Source of the DNA: Acidobacteriota bacterium
Lineage (GTDB): Bacteria > Acidobacteriota > Terriglobia > UBA7540
NCBI GenBank assembly: GCA_902812415.1
Contig: CADDZJ010000002.1
Location: 62,001 to 126,000, forward strand
Reading direction: 5' to 3'
Length of the DNA: 64,000 nt
The notes under the pieces: generated by a model
What the model was told of the DNA's origin: nothing
Seen by the model: the letters and a program-made list of their open reading frames with translations, nothing else
Databases searched by the model: none
Shown: in pieces, positions 26,698-43,648 of the stretch
How positions within the stretch are numbered: position 1 is the stretch's first letter
Layout: every line of letters starts with the position of its first letter
Position numbers and translations under genes: made by a program

Positions 26698-29600
26698 TTA
26701 TAGCTTGGGAACGCCTTCTACGCGGAGAGTCAGGATTTGGAAAGGCCTTACTGAGAAGTGGACGCTGTCGGACGATACTGACAGCGCCTGCTGATTTTGC
26801 TCAACGGCATTCGACTGCCAGGCAGAGGTGATTTCCAGGTGCGGAATCTGAACGCTTACCGCGCTTTCTTTCCCGGCCGTCTCGACAAAGCGCAGGATAG
26901 TTCCCTGGTTGTTTTCAGCGCGTTTCCAGTCAACCAGCACCACGTCGGGCTGGTTAGTCTCCAGGAAACTGCCTTCCACTCCGCTGAGAGGCGCAGGGCG
27001 GCTCACCGCCTTATCATTCGGAATGATTTCATTCACTTCCAGCGGCGTCATTTCCGCCCATCCCAACCGGCTCAGCGCAGCGGGGCTGATATTTTGGCCG
27101 CTGGTCACAACGTAACGGAAAGTAAAGTCTCCGCCCTGGTCAGCCCGATAGTTAGTGAACCAATAGTTGTTCATGGCATAAGAGAAAATCGCGCCCTTGC
27201 GTGGGCCAAAAGATAAGGGCCACGTGCCGCGCACAATATCGCCCAGCGTCACCAGGGGAGCGTCCACCGGAACGATTGCGACGGTGGTCCCATCCTGTTG
27301 CGCCTCAATCCAGTGTTGCACTGAAAACCACTCCTTCCCCGCCCCAGGCAACTGATCGTGAGCGGGATCGACATACCCGTTTTGAATCTCGTAACGGAAT
27401 TGCGGATGGTCCATCGAGAATGGGAACGCGAAATAGACGCCTTCTTTCGCATCCACAGCGTTTTTATGAACGCGGTTGATAAACCCGATCTTCTTCTGGC
27501 CATCGAAAAGAATGATCTCAGTATCAATGCGGGGCGTATTGGTTGCCGAGCTTTCGAGCCGCGCGACCGCCCCGAAAGGCTCGCGCGTTACCGAGACGAG
27601 ACGCCCTGCCGCCGCTCCACGAATGGTAAGTTGCGGAACGGGCAATCCGGGATAGTTATAGATCAGGCTATTCATGGAAGGCTGGTCGCCACCCGTCACA
27701 TAAAGATACTGGTCAAAGCGGTAGGCGCTCGACGCGTCAACCAAATCTTTTTGCAACGCTTTGTCGTAAATGCTCTTCACGGCGCCACTGTCGGGGTCGA
27801 GCGCGATGCGATAGTATTCGTTTTCCATGACCTCTGCCGCACTCGTTTGCGGAGCGGGGGGCTTGGAAGCGGCTTTCTTCAAGGCATAGCATCGATAACC
27901 CACCGAGGGGATATCGCTCGCCATAAAGCGCACACGCTGATAGGCATCGCCGGTTGAGAGGACTTCATACGGTACGGCCTGCTGGGTTGAGAGATCCACG
28001 ATTTCGTCACCTTTGGGAAGGTCCATCTCAACCAGACCGCTTCGTCGCCAATTGAGCGGATTAAACACCACCCAGGTGCCGCTTGGATCGTGAATCGATG
28101 CCGCAATCACCGCCATGTTGCGATCCAGAATATATTCCAGATCGTGGCGGGCGCGAATTGCGAACGCATCTTTCACCGCCAGTTGGCGAATGGATTCCTG
28201 GCTGCGCGGATTGGATACGCTGCCCGCGGCTCCCCAGGTGTGCTCATCAAAAAGAATCAGGTTGCGCCACATCTGGCGAAGGATCCCCTCCTCCGGCTTC
28301 ACGTGAGGGTTCAAAAGAGAACTTAACGTGGCAATCTTCTCAGCGGAGAGCGCCCGCTGCTCGCTTTCGCGGTTCATCGCCGCAAAGTAGGCGTCGGAGA
28401 CGATGCCGTCTTCCCAGTAAGGCCCGCCATCACCACGAATCACAGGAATGGAATTGCCCTCTTCCTGGGCAATCGCCTGGAGCGCGCTGCTGAAATCGGT
28501 ATAGACCAGCTTGGGATAAGCATAGATTTTATTCCACGCGCCCACGAAGGTCGCTTGCTGAGGAAAGAGATCTGAGTTTTCCCACTGTGCGCCGAAAAGT
28601 AATACTGAACTGGGCTTGTACTCCTTCGTGGAATACACCTGCAGGAATCTCGGCAGGGCGTCATGCCCGATCATCACGCGGGGCGGCAATCCGAAAAATT
28701 GTCCCACCTGTCCGTAGCTGTCCGAATACCACATCAGAACTTTGCCGCCGTCGGGGCCTTCCCACCAGAAGGGCGACCCTTCCTGCAGATGGCTCTGATT
28801 CAAAATCGGCCCGCGAATCTGGTCGCATCCGGCCAGGAAATATTTCAGTCCCGCCGCTGCCAATACCGATGCGTAAGACCAACTATACGAAGGCACATCG
28901 GTGATGTTGGCGTAATCAAACTCCTTCCCGTGTTGCTGATCGAACCTGAAACTCGGATAAAGCGAGCGAATCAAGGTCTCAACCGTCGGGAAGCCGGTGA
29001 GGAGATTGGCATATTGTGCCGGGATGAAGATCTTCTTTTCCTGAATCGCCTGCAAAAGCCTCTGCCGGTCGCTCGCGCTCCTTCCGGCGAAAAATTGCTG
29101 AAGCACCCAATATCCATCGGGGCTGTAGCGGAAATTCGGATTCTTCTGGATCATCTCCATCGCTTCATCCAGAACGCGGCTCTGCACCTCAGCCACCTTC
29201 GCTTGATAATCGGTATAGCCCACGTCCAGATGCTCGTGGGGAACCACCAGCACGGTCCACTTCCTGGCAGGATTCAAGGTTTCTCTGAAATGGCGCGAGC
29301 GCCCGCGGAGAGCCACGGTTAATTCCGCGGAGGTTGAAGAGGAAAATTCGGGCACGGCAAATTCCACTCGTTGCTCGCCAAAATCGCGGTCAGGCAAGAG
29401 ACTCTGTGTGAATTTCTGATGGCCTACCGTCAATACGACACGCCCCTGATTGGAGGATGCATTGTGGTCTACGAATACATCCACAATCTCCGTAAGCTGG
29501 TTATCCTTGTTTTGGTAAAAAATTGTAGGCTGAATTTGAGCCCTGATTTTGCCAGGGTCAAATTTCTCTTGAGGGTCCTGATCCAACTCCAGAGCGTCGT

Positions 29601-34435: not shown

Positions 34436-36724
34436 CTACGTCCCCCGCGAGCCTTCGCGTGTAAGGGTATAGCTTTGACCCTGATAGTTGACGTTTCGCA
34501 ACTCAGCTTCGGGATCGAAATCGGCAAGGCGAGAATGAACCTGAATTCCATGGCTTAGGCTCAGATCAGCCCCGAAAATCGAGTCAATGACCAGATCCGT
34601 GAAACTGCCTCCCGAAACAATTGCCCAATCGTTTCCATAGGGTTGGTCTAGCGGGCTTTTCATAGCGCCCCCTTTTTCCGGTGAGAAAATATTCTCCACA
34701 ATATGGGCTTGCGCATAAGGCCCCTGATTTCCCGAGCGGGCAAGCCCTTTCACCCATTCGGCGACGCGCGCGGGGGGATCCGTCTTATACAATCCCTTGG
34801 CAGTCATGGAAGGCCATGCCGCATAAGCGCCCAGCCAGCTATGATCGGCGCGCACATTCCAGGTGGCATCCGGATCACCCGGTGAAAGCGCGTGCATCCA
34901 TAAGGGCGTGTGAAGCTGGCTCCAGAAGAAATGGCTCATCTCTCTTTTTTGTTCATCGCTCAGATCCTCAAACATGGTATCAAGGATGGTCAGCAAATCG
35001 TAACAATGGCGGACTTCATTAAACGTTCCGTCAGGCTGGCCGCACCGCCACCAGCCTTTGCCCCTTACGTACAACAGGCGATTGATGCGTTCGGCCAGTT
35101 CCCTGGCTTCCATTCGCAAGTGCGATGCGCGGCTTCGGTCGCCGCGATGATCAAGCAGCGCCGCCACAAACCGCATTCCATAAACATTTCCGGCATTCAT
35201 TGCCGGAACCTCATGAATCCAAGTGCTGACCACTTCCAGCAGATTTTGTATCTCGCCGTAATCCGCCAGGCCCGTGGAGCTTTTCACCAGCTTCTTCCAA
35301 TAAAGAGCATAATCCACCAAATGCTCCATAACGGGCTTTCCCTCCAGCTTCTTGTCCAGCCAGCCAAAATTGCCCGTCACGCGCAGGTAATGATCCGTAC
35401 AACGCAGAATGCCCATATCGTTCACGGCGTACCAGGGTCCCACGCCCTGACCGGTCAGGAAATCTGTCGCCAGGTGCTGGTGCATGTCGCGTGTAAGCCA
35501 GACCTCGATCAGAGAACGAAGCGCCTTGGGGTCCAACAGCGAAAGGCTGAGCGAGGTCAACATGGTGTCCCAGACGAAACTGAGCGTGGGTATGACGCGC
35601 CCGATGGTGACGTAAGTAGGCCCATAAACCGAATTGGGAGAAACTCTCCGGCAGAAGAGCAAACCTGCGATTCCGTTGTAATAAAGTTTCCACAGCGCCG
35701 GATTGTGGGTGTGAAGTTGAGGCAAATGTCCGGAGAACTCTGAATTGCCGGGAGTAAACGCTGCCTGGAGAAGGTTGGCGGCGGAGCGCTCGTTTTCCTG
35801 TTGCAATTCGTCAAAGCCAGCCTGACGCCGCTTGTAGGTTTCAAGCGCGGCGTCACCAGCTTCATCGATGACGTTCAAGTAATGAAGGGCGCGACTTTCG
35901 CCTGGTCCCAGGGAAAATTCATAGACCAGCATCCGCTTCTGTTCGATGCGATCAGGCTGAGGTGAAATCCCTTGTACGGAAACGGCCCGACTATGCCGCG
36001 CCTCAAAGACGACGCACCCATTGGACTCATTGGGAGTAACGCGATTATCGGCTTCGGCGGGGGTGTTCACAAACCATGGTTTTCCGCTTGTCGCCGTGAC
36101 TCCGGCGCGCAGGTCGAAGCCCAAGGTCAACTTGCGGCGCTCGCTGCTTTCATTTTTAACAGTAATGGACTCGGCAACGACGCGTTGATAGGGAGGCAAG
36201 AAAGTCTCTGTCCGAAACAGAAGCCCCACGACACGAGTTTCGCGCAGGATTTTATGAGGATACCAGGTATAGGCTATGCGCCCTGCGGGCGCCGGATAGT
36301 CCGCCAAAATCTGATCGTCAAGAAACAGCTCACAGGTCACAAGATTCCCAGGACTGAAAGCGATCTCCGGAACGCCGCAACAGCCGAAAGGAGGAAAGGC
36401 CATGGCGGTAATCGCTGAGACGGATTTATGGCTGGCAATGGAGCCCAATTCGTTCTGCGCCTGAGGCGGATTGAAATAGTCCCTGAAATGATGGATAAGC
36501 TGGTCGCTTGCCAAATCGGAGGGCCGGGGAATCAAGGGAAGCGGTTCTCTTCCCCGCCCAGCTTCTTGCTCCACCCGCAAAAGCGGCGGCGCGCCAGCCG
36601 CATGATCCGCCGATGAAGGCGTCAGCGGCAAAGCGCTTCCAAGGGCTCCCAGTTTCAGGAATGACCTTCGGTCCAAAGACGATGCCAGGGATCGCGCAGA
36701 ATCAGGATGGTCAGGAACGCTCAT
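34436..36724 (-). CDS. Tat-exported six-hairpin glycosidase-like protein
   Basis: A predicted exported enzyme of 762 residues. The twin-arginine motif is DRRSFLKLG (about 18-26). The N-terminal half is a beta-sandwich with FPPFGCCGVPEIAFSPG (about 112-128). From about 350 on there are helical hairpins of an (alpha/alpha)6 barrel with SFVWDTMLTSLSL (about 378-390) and a late DHSWLGAYAAWPSMTAKGLY. This resembles GH63-like and related clan members, but the family number is uncertain. Its C-terminal end is similar in style to the glycosidase at 15334, each with a C-terminal beta strand containing NVxYxGQ. It follows the receptor gene by 88 bp on the same strand, so uptake and cleavage of one glycan are likely linked. 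Confidence 0.7.
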   Translation of the reverse strand: MSVPDHPDSARSLASSLDRRSFLKLGALGSALPLTPSSADHAAGAPPLLRVEQEAGRGREPLPLIPRPSDLASDQLIHHFRDYFNPPQAQNELGSIASHKSVSAITAMAFPPFGCCGVPEIAFSPGNLVTCELFLDDQILADYPAPAGRIAYTWYPHKILRETRVVGLLFRTETFLPPYQRVVAESITVKNESSERRKLTLGFDLRAGVTATSGKPWFVNTPAEADNRVTPNESNGCVVFEARHSRAVSVQGISPQPDRIEQKRMLVYEFSLGPGESRALHYLNVIDEAGDAALETYKRRQAGFDELQQENERSAANLLQAAFTPGNSEFSGHLPQLHTHNPALWKLYYNGIAGLLFCRRVSPNSVYGPTYVTIGRVIPTLSFVWDTMLTSLSLSLLDPKALRSLIEVWLTRDMHQHLATDFLTGQGVGPWYAVNDMGILRCTDHYLRVTGNFGWLDKKLEGKPVMEHLVDYALYWKKLVKSSTGLADYGEIQNLLEVVSTWIHEVPAMNAGNVYGMRFVAALLDHRGDRSRASHLRMEARELAERINRLLYVRGKGWWRCGQPDGTFNEVRHCYDLLTILDTMFEDLSDEQKREMSHFFWSQLHTPLWMHALSPGDPDATWNVRADHSWLGAYAAWPSMTAKGLYKTDPPARVAEWVKGLARSGNQGPYAQAHIVENIFSPEKGGAMKSPLDQPYGNDWAIVSGGSFTDLVIDSIFGADLSLSHGIQVHSRLADFDPEAELRNVNYQGQSYTLTREGSRGT

Positions 36725-40639: not shown

Positions 40640-43600
40640 ATGAAAACACGCCGAGACTTTTTGCGCGCTTTGCTGGCGGCATGCGTTTCCACATTTCCCT
40701 ACTCATCCGCGGCAGGCCAGCAACTGCTGTCGGACAATGCCTTTCAAGCCAAACTCAGCCATCTTTATACGCGCGACGGCGGTCAACTGCGACAGATTCT
40801 GATCGTTGATGCGCCAGGTTCCCTGCCCGACGCCAGTATCGGGATCAGTATTGGCAAGCGGTTTGAGCGAGTCAACTTGCGACAAGTCCGAAAGATTTAT
40901 GACCAATACTACGTGCCCATAACTCCGGTGGAACAAAAAGAGACCGCCAATCTGGCTCTAAGGAATGCCGGCCGCACACTGGAAACTTCGCTCGAAGTCA
41001 GACCCATCCGCCGCTAGCAGGTTTATGTAGTCCATAACTCTCATCAGGATCCCGGATTTCTTGATCTCCCGTCAAAACTCCGCGCCCGCTTCGTTCCCTT
41101 TATCGATGAAGCCATGAAGTATTGCGAAGAAACTTCTGCGTGGCCTGCGGACTCGCAATTCAAATGGAACATCGAGGTCAGTTACCTCGTTGAAAACTAG
41201 CTGAAAGCGCGGGGGCCGGAAAAGCTGCGAGAAGTGATGGATTGGGTGAAGAAGGGGCGAATGACGACTGGCGGACTATATTGCAGCACGCAGACAGATT
41301 TCATGAGCCTGGAATCTCTGCATCGATCTGTCCACTATGCGACGAACCGACTGGAGCGGCAGTTCGGCGTGAATCTGGAAGGTGTCATCCTGGATGATGT
41401 GAATGGATTCACCTGGCGTCTGGTTGAAGTGATGGCCAAATCCGGACTGAAGTATTTCATCATGGGATCGAACGGCTACCGGGACAGCATGCAAAACGGC
41501 AACGCGCCCACGCTCTTTTATCTGGAGGGACCGGATGGCAGCGAGGTGCTGATTTGGCGGTCCATCTCCTACACTGAAGGGTTTGATCTGATCACTTTCG
41601 TCGATCCCTACTCTCTGCGCGGCATCAAGGGCATCGATCTTCACGGCGGGGAGAAAACTATTGCTCCTTACTTTGAGCGGCACGAACTGGCCGGCTATCC
41701 TTTTGATGCAATCCTCCTGCAAGCAGCCTACGATTTCACGCCGCCTTACAAAGAATTTTCCGGGATGGTTCGAACCTGGAACTCACTCTGGGCCTTTCCA
41801 CAGCTCCGCCTTTCAACCATCTCCGAATTTTTTCGCGATATCGAAAGCCGTCATCGGGATCAAATCCCTCGTCTGCGCGGGGGAACGCCGGACGGCTGGG
41901 TTGACCTCCACAACACGCAGGCGCAAGCGGCGGCGCTGGCTCGTCGCACGGAAGACCGCTTGCCCGACGCGGAAAGGCTTTCAACGCTCGCGTACCTGCT
42001 CACCAATGGCAAACCCCGACAGGAGGAATTCTTTGACGCCTACAACGAGCTCATTCTGTTTGAGGAGCATACGATCGAGTGGTATCAGCATGCGGATATC
42101 TACGTGGATGAGAGCCAAGGCGTCGGCAAGAAACATTGGGAAGAAAAGGTCGCTCACGTCGAGTTTGCGCATCGCGCGGCTGAACAGATTGAGCAGGAAA
42201 GCCTGAAAGATCTCTGCGCCAACATCCGCCGTTCGGCGCCTCTTTCAATAGCCGTCTGGAATCCGCTTTCCTGGTCACGAAGCGAGATCGCCCGCATGCC
42301 GGCGCCCCAAACGGCAAAATCACCTTTCCGACTCGTCGATATCGAAACTGGCAGCGAGGTTCCATACCAGATTGAAAACCCCGGAACGGCATCCGCAACG
42401 CTTGTGTTCTACGCCGCTCAAGTCCCCTCTCTGGGTTACCGCGCTTATGCGTTGGAATCAGGCCAGCCTTCTGCAAGTTCTGACCACGCAACTATTACCG
42501 CAAGAAGCATGGAGAATGCATATTACCGGGTAGAGCTTTCAGAAAAGGATGGGACGGTAGCAAGCCTTATTGACAAGAAGTTGCAACGCGAATTTATCGA
42601 CCCCAGGGCAGAGCACGGGCTCAACTCTTTGGTCTATCGCGTGAATCAGAGGATCAGCCCTCGTGAGTATAAAACTCTTGCAGAGCTTCCTGTGGAGGGT
42701 GTCACCATCCAAAAAGGGTCGCAAGGCCCCGTCTTCTACAGCCTGAAGGTGACCGGATCCATCGGCTACATCTGCGAGTTCGGGCATCAGATCATCCTCT
42801 ATCCTCATATCAAGCGCATCGACTTATAGAACCATCTCAAAAAGAAACCGGTCTACACCAAGGAGTCGGTCTATTATGCCTTCCCCTTTGATGTCCCAAG
42901 CGATCTAGGCGCTCCGGTCACTTACCTGGAGCATTTCAACACTTACAGGATTGATATGCCGGGTTCCATCATGCAGCCGGACATCGATCAAATTCCCGGC
43001 TCCATTCGTGACAATTACGTTTCGCAGCACTGGGTCTCAATTTCTCGCCAAGACTACGGTGTGCTATGGGCTTCTGCCGACGTCCCCCTGGTTGAACTGG
43101 GTGGGATTCAAACGGAAAAATACTTGCCTTATCTCACGATGGTAGACGGCAACTGGCTGGTGCAAGCCCGCCTTTATTCCTTCCTGATGCACAACCACTG
43201 AATCGTCGATTGTCCCATTGCACAAAGCTGTGATGACACATTCCGATACGCAATCACCACGCATGGACCGAACTGGACTTATGACACGGCCCACCACTTT
43301 GGCTGGGGTTTTGTGAGCCCCTTGCGCGCTTTCGTGTTAAAGGGTGAACGACAGAGCGGCTGGTCCGAGCCAGCTCGAAGTTTTGTCGAAATCCGTCCGG
43401 AGAACGTGTACCTCGCGGGGTTCAAAGCAGCCGAGGATGGCGATGGAGTGATCTTGCGGCTCTATGAGGGGGCGGGAATACAATCTTCAGCAACCGTTCT
43501 TTTCAATTTGCCGGGACAAAGAATCGCCGAGGCGCAGGGTTGCGATGCTCGCGAAAAAAATCTCTCAAGCTTGGAATCGAATTCCGATTCAGCAGAAGTG

Positions 43601-43648
43601 TCTTTTAAACCTTTCGAAACCCGCACTATCAGAATCCGGTTTCGCTGA
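40640..43648 (+). pseudogene. GH38-type glycosidase gene with four in-frame stop codons and no frameshift
   Basis: A single reading frame of 1002 codons runs from ATG 40640 (after GGAGGA) to TGA 43646. It is broken by TAG 41015-41017, TAG 41198-41200, TAG 42827-42829 and TGA 43199-43201. Translated through the stops it is a complete Tat-exported GH38 protein: TRRDFLRALL at the N-terminus, VVHNSHQD with the zinc ligands His135 and Asp137, the nucleophile segment VILDDVNGFTW and the C-terminal beta domains. Aligned by eye to the intact GH38 protein at 26698, the first stop matches Trp306 (KWTV) and the last matches the Trp of NNYWFTNY. The second falls on an aromatic position and the third on a variable one. 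Three stops are therefore explainable as TGG changed by one G-to-A step. A recent pseudogene is most likely; read-through or sequence error are alternatives. Confidence 0.85.

Follow-up and report, generated by a model that had tools for sequence, protein, structure and literature searches.

The locus at 40640-43648 raises the question of how a glycoside hydrolase gene of 3 kb can contain four in-frame stop codons and no frameshift, and whether it still yields an enzyme. An earlier note listed a very young pseudogene, a base-biased mutation process, read-through and consensus errors as possible answers. Here we examine the frame, its relatives and its genome. "The window" denotes the whole 64-kb stretch of DNA analysed.

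A GH38 frame interrupted by four stops

The locus (40640-43648, forward strand) consists of a single GH38 frame of 1002 codons, starting with ATG and ending with a terminal TGA at 43646-43648 (Table 1). The stop-interrupted frame obtains a strong coding score in the coding-potential scan. Its N-terminal region contains a Tat-like signal, read from the sequence as RRDFLRALLA. The longest open piece matches the Pfam models of both the N-terminal and the C-terminal domain of the family (Glyco_hydro_38N, PF01074, E = 4e-15; 38C, PF07748, E = 8e-6). The sole NCBIfam match is mannosylglycerate hydrolase (PRK09819), which lies far under the cut-off. The Rfam scan of the 64-kb window gave no match.

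The frame shares with GH38 alpha-mannosidases the N-terminal catalytic and C-terminal domains together with the HxD, Asp and EHT motifs, and its residues H135, D137, D253 and H477 agree with the homologue columns in the alignment. We take these residues, from knowledge of the GH38 family, to be the probable zinc ligands and nucleophile. The frame differs from these enzymes in being interrupted by stops, and it belongs to a small subfamily found here in only three genomes. The intact GH38 gene at 26698 in the same window is only 28% identical to it.

All four probable zinc-site residues are unchanged, but they are split between two stop-free pieces (codons 127-186 and 188-729). Because the zinc ligands are divided in this way, no stop-free piece could, by the logic of the family, be an active enzyme. 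A split enzyme produced by internal restarts was also considered and rejected, as the HxD motif is in one piece and the Asp and EHT residues are in another. With four in-frame stops and no suppressor tRNA among 41 tRNA genes, the frame does not qualify as a translatable full-length enzyme.

Table 1 Features of the GH38 locus (window coordinates)
Feature	Position	Strand	Basis
GH38 alpha-mannosidase-type pseudogene (very probable)	40640..43648	+	1002-codon frame with four internal stops; Pfam matches on the longest open piece
In-frame TAG, codon 126	41015..41017	+	TGG in both orthologues; Trp in 28/32 homologues
H135 and D137, HxD motif, probable zinc ligands	41042..41050	+	Alignment; stop-free piece 127-186
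In-frame TAG, codon 187	41198..41200	+	Both orthologues TAC (Tyr); homologues Tyr 15, Phe 15, Trp 2 (of 32)
D253, conserved Asp, probable nucleophile/zinc ligand	41396..41398	+	Alignment; stop-free piece 188-729
H477, conserved EHT motif, probable fourth zinc ligand	42068..42070	+	Alignment; stop-free piece 188-729
In-frame TAG, codon 730	42827..42829	+	ATC/CAT in orthologues; homologues mostly Ile/Val
In-frame TGA, codon 854	43199..43201	+	TGG in both orthologues; Trp in 28/32 homologues

Codons replaced by the stops

The replaced codons were read from a codon alignment with two orthologues (genomes G034 and G012), and the residues from 32 more distant GH38 proteins. The homologue alignment that the earlier note had proposed agrees with its reading by eye, which placed the first and last stops at conserved tryptophans and the second at an aromatic position. 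In the intact GH38 at 26698, the residues opposite the four stops are W, F, I and W in order. The column of codon 730 contains Ile in 16 and Val in 7 of the 32 proteins, in addition to other residues, and Trp in none. The frame itself is intact over 3 kb around its TAG, TAG, TAG and TGA, as the note had described, and no frameshift separates it from the 60%-identical intact orthologue.

The further claim, a single G-to-A step from TGG for three of the four stops, fails at codon 187, where both orthologues have TAC; two such stops are left. Judged from the orthologue codons, the stops at 126 and 854 are single G-to-A changes from TGG, whereas a TAC-to-TAG transversion is the simplest origin of the stop at 187. 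The stop at 730 would need an intermediate, for example a Leu TTG codon.

Orthologues in related genomes

The best matches of the read-through protein come from two genomes of the same family, G034 and G012. The G034 orthologue (contig C206) is intact, 60% identical, and aligns over its full length without frameshift; one lineage-specific 3-nt gap is located near codon 483, within a loop of variable length. The G012 orthologue (contig C347) matches in two pieces, 64% and 59% identical. This copy (G012:C347:5831-8694, L044) is broken by a frame-changing deletion of ~140 bp, and its aligned frames have no internal stop.

A search of the three congeneric genomes did not find the gene, and 396 genomes drawn across the phylum yielded nothing closer than 32%. 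In addition, a scan of genome contigs for relatives found none. The broken G012 copy and the lack of a match in the three congeneric genomes suggest that the family can do without the gene. The earlier note had also proposed looking for the same stops in related genomes; none is shared, and both G034 and G012 have sense codons at all four positions.

Genetic code of the genome

The genes for RF1 and RF2 are present and intact. All 41 tRNA genes found with the Rfam model have ordinary anticodons, and none has a CUA or UCA anticodon that would indicate a suppressor. In 415 kb of sampled genome sequence, 209 long ORFs end in TGA (98), TAA (59) or TAG (52). A coding-potential scan allowing stops, covering ~450 kb of the genome, revealed no other real multi-stop gene. 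The strongest other multi-stop frames that it flagged were rejected by eye as adjacent genes or antisense frames. These observations bear out the earlier view that global recoding is unlikely.

Constraint and age of the loss

A dN/dS analysis, likewise proposed earlier, was carried out with a three-taxon codon model. Omega is 0.05 on the branch of the interrupted gene and ~0.03 on the other branches, which is not a significant difference (2dlnL 0.57); this branch is very long and its dS is saturated, so that the value reflects the period before the stops and cannot reveal a recent loss. As the branch omega is not significantly above ~0.03, the model shows that most of the history of the gene was under purifying constraint.

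A complementary measure comes from missense changes at conserved sites, here 223 columns with conservation in at least 75% of the homologues. Six such changes are private to the interrupted gene, three to the intact orthologue and seven to the broken G012 copy. The loss looks very recent, because the first of these loads is hardly above that of the intact orthologue.

About 4.3% of the neutral single-base changes in the gene create a stop, and four stops thus imply ~93 substitutions on average. Indel-to-substitution ratios range from ~0.10 to 0.36 in tabulated bacteria (PMC4978911), and the genome-wide ratio in Acidobacterium capsulatum is ~0.35 (indels 4.35e-11 versus substitutions 1.22e-10; PMC8717266). 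Over the time needed for ~93 substitutions, the published ratios predict at least 8 frameshifts. A joint fit of the stops, frameshifts and conserved-site missense changes gives ~18-34 substitutions after the loss, and a probability of at least four stops of 0.02-0.06 at indel ratios of 0.03-0.1 and of 0.008 at a ratio of 0.2. Four stops without a frameshift are therefore mildly unlikely under neutral decay, at about 0.01-0.06, an estimate that concerns a gene picked out for its stops. These odds lend the earlier remark, that indels normally accompany neutral decay, fair quantitative support; yet receptor paralogues in the same genome show inactivation by stops only.

Broken receptor paralogues of the genome

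Two TonB-type outer-membrane receptor genes each carry a single stop in an otherwise intact frame, namely an in-frame TAG in a frame of 1186 codons (L119, G000:C154:678-3182) and an in-frame TAA in one of 1118 codons (L120, in the region G000:C16:20102-23410). Two further receptor paralogues (L120, G000:C16:29896-33544, and L045, G000:C2:47561-51195) are each split by a frameshift. Stop-only inactivation recurs in the genome, as the receptor paralogues carry single stops as well as frameshifts, and it is about as frequent as frameshift in these very small numbers. At such parity, the chance of four stops in a row is near 0.06.

A probable young unitary pseudogene

We conclude that the GH38 frame is very probably a young unitary pseudogene, the best supported of the options that had been listed. 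Relative to the intact G034 orthologue it carries four disabling stops, and it has little missense excess. Until recently, strong purifying selection would have maintained a secreted GH38 alpha-mannosidase-type gene, whose function point mutation would then have abolished in this lineage. The first stop would have truncated the protein, leaving further stops free to accumulate, and four would now be present before the first frameshift. Each internal stop would end translation in the normal way, and no active enzyme would result. The loss would be recent and neutral, with no product made.

The locus resembles other bacterial pseudogenes with several nonsense mutations in its full-length homology, its in-frame stops, the intact orthologue in a relative and the dispensable, accessory nature of the gene. 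It differs from them in having four stops before any frameshift, which places it at an unusual end of the range. As a pseudogene it is of little import, documenting the continuing loss of an accessory glycoside hydrolase in a bacterial lineage. It also serves as a warning that recoding does not follow from several stops in an intact frame.

Alternative explanations

An error in the consensus or assembly would mean that the real gene is intact and that the stops are miscalled bases or the product of a strain merge in the metagenome assembly. The genome is split into 261 contigs, assemblies are well known to contain spurious internal stops (PMC11017572), and the kept frame with its near-normal missense load is the expected trace of isolated base errors. 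This option of the earlier note is nevertheless unlikely, as it needs four errors in one 3-kb gene, which lies inside a 157-kb contig, and no comparable multi-stop gene was found in ~450 kb.

Near-cognate tRNAs can insert Trp at UGA and Tyr or Trp at UAG. Such insertion would suit three of the four sites if the stops were read through, another of the options listed. The gene would then still be selected, with low amounts of full-length, functional enzyme made by read-through of TAG as well as TGA, programmed or tolerated and dependent on conditions. The intact frame and catalytic residues, the small missense excess and the near absence of frameshift decay agree with this, as does the report that in-frame stops with dN/dS <1 are widespread in bacteria (Belinky et al. 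2021, PMC7918605). The genes in that report likewise have in-frame stops within an otherwise constrained frame. However, the argument made there relies on the same stop being common to orthologues, whereas the GH38 frame has four stops of two kinds and shares none with its G034 and G012 orthologues. Moreover, ribosomes would have to pass four stops that are targets of RF1 and RF2 on one message, and the yield would be vanishingly small, as no suppressor tRNA was found. No single reading of TAG suits codon 730, Ile or Val in homologues, and the low omega, an average over a branch that is very long and saturated in dS, is silent on the time after the stops. Read-through is therefore very unlikely; if true, the locus would offer a remarkable example of four stops suppressed in one gene.

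A G-to-A-biased process, either a mutator or damage, could have made the stops from TGG. Two stops are indeed TGG to TAG or TGA relative to both orthologues, and in an acidobacterium G:C to A:T transitions are more common than any other change (PMC8717266). The case for such a process falls with the unsupported derivation of three stops from TGG: codon 187 is a Tyr codon in both orthologues, codon 730 is Trp in none of the 32 homologues, and at least two stops are most simply other changes. In addition, TGG codons would account for 10-27% of neutral stops in any case, according to the four mutation spectra that were applied. Explaining only two of the four stops, this reading is highly improbable.

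That TAG (and TGA) has been reassigned to a sense codon in the organism is almost certainly wrong: its only supporting point is that the frame is open when the stops are read through, whereas both release factors are present and unaltered, no cognate stop tRNA occurs among the 41 tRNA genes, most sampled genes end in TAG and TGA, the TAGs align with three residue types (Trp, Tyr/Phe and Ile/Val), and the ~450 kb scanned contain no other multi-stop gene and hence no in-frame stop codon used across many genes at one residue type.

A neighbouring gene

On the reverse strand of the window, the gene at 34436-36724 encodes a protein of 762 aa that has no Pfam or NCBIfam match. A relative of this protein, 73% identical over 219 aa (L043:1-657), lies in G034, ~10 kb away from the intact orthologue of the GH38 gene. 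Because of this proximity, the gene of the 762-aa protein and the GH38 gene, which is very probably a pseudogene here, may belong to one gene cluster.
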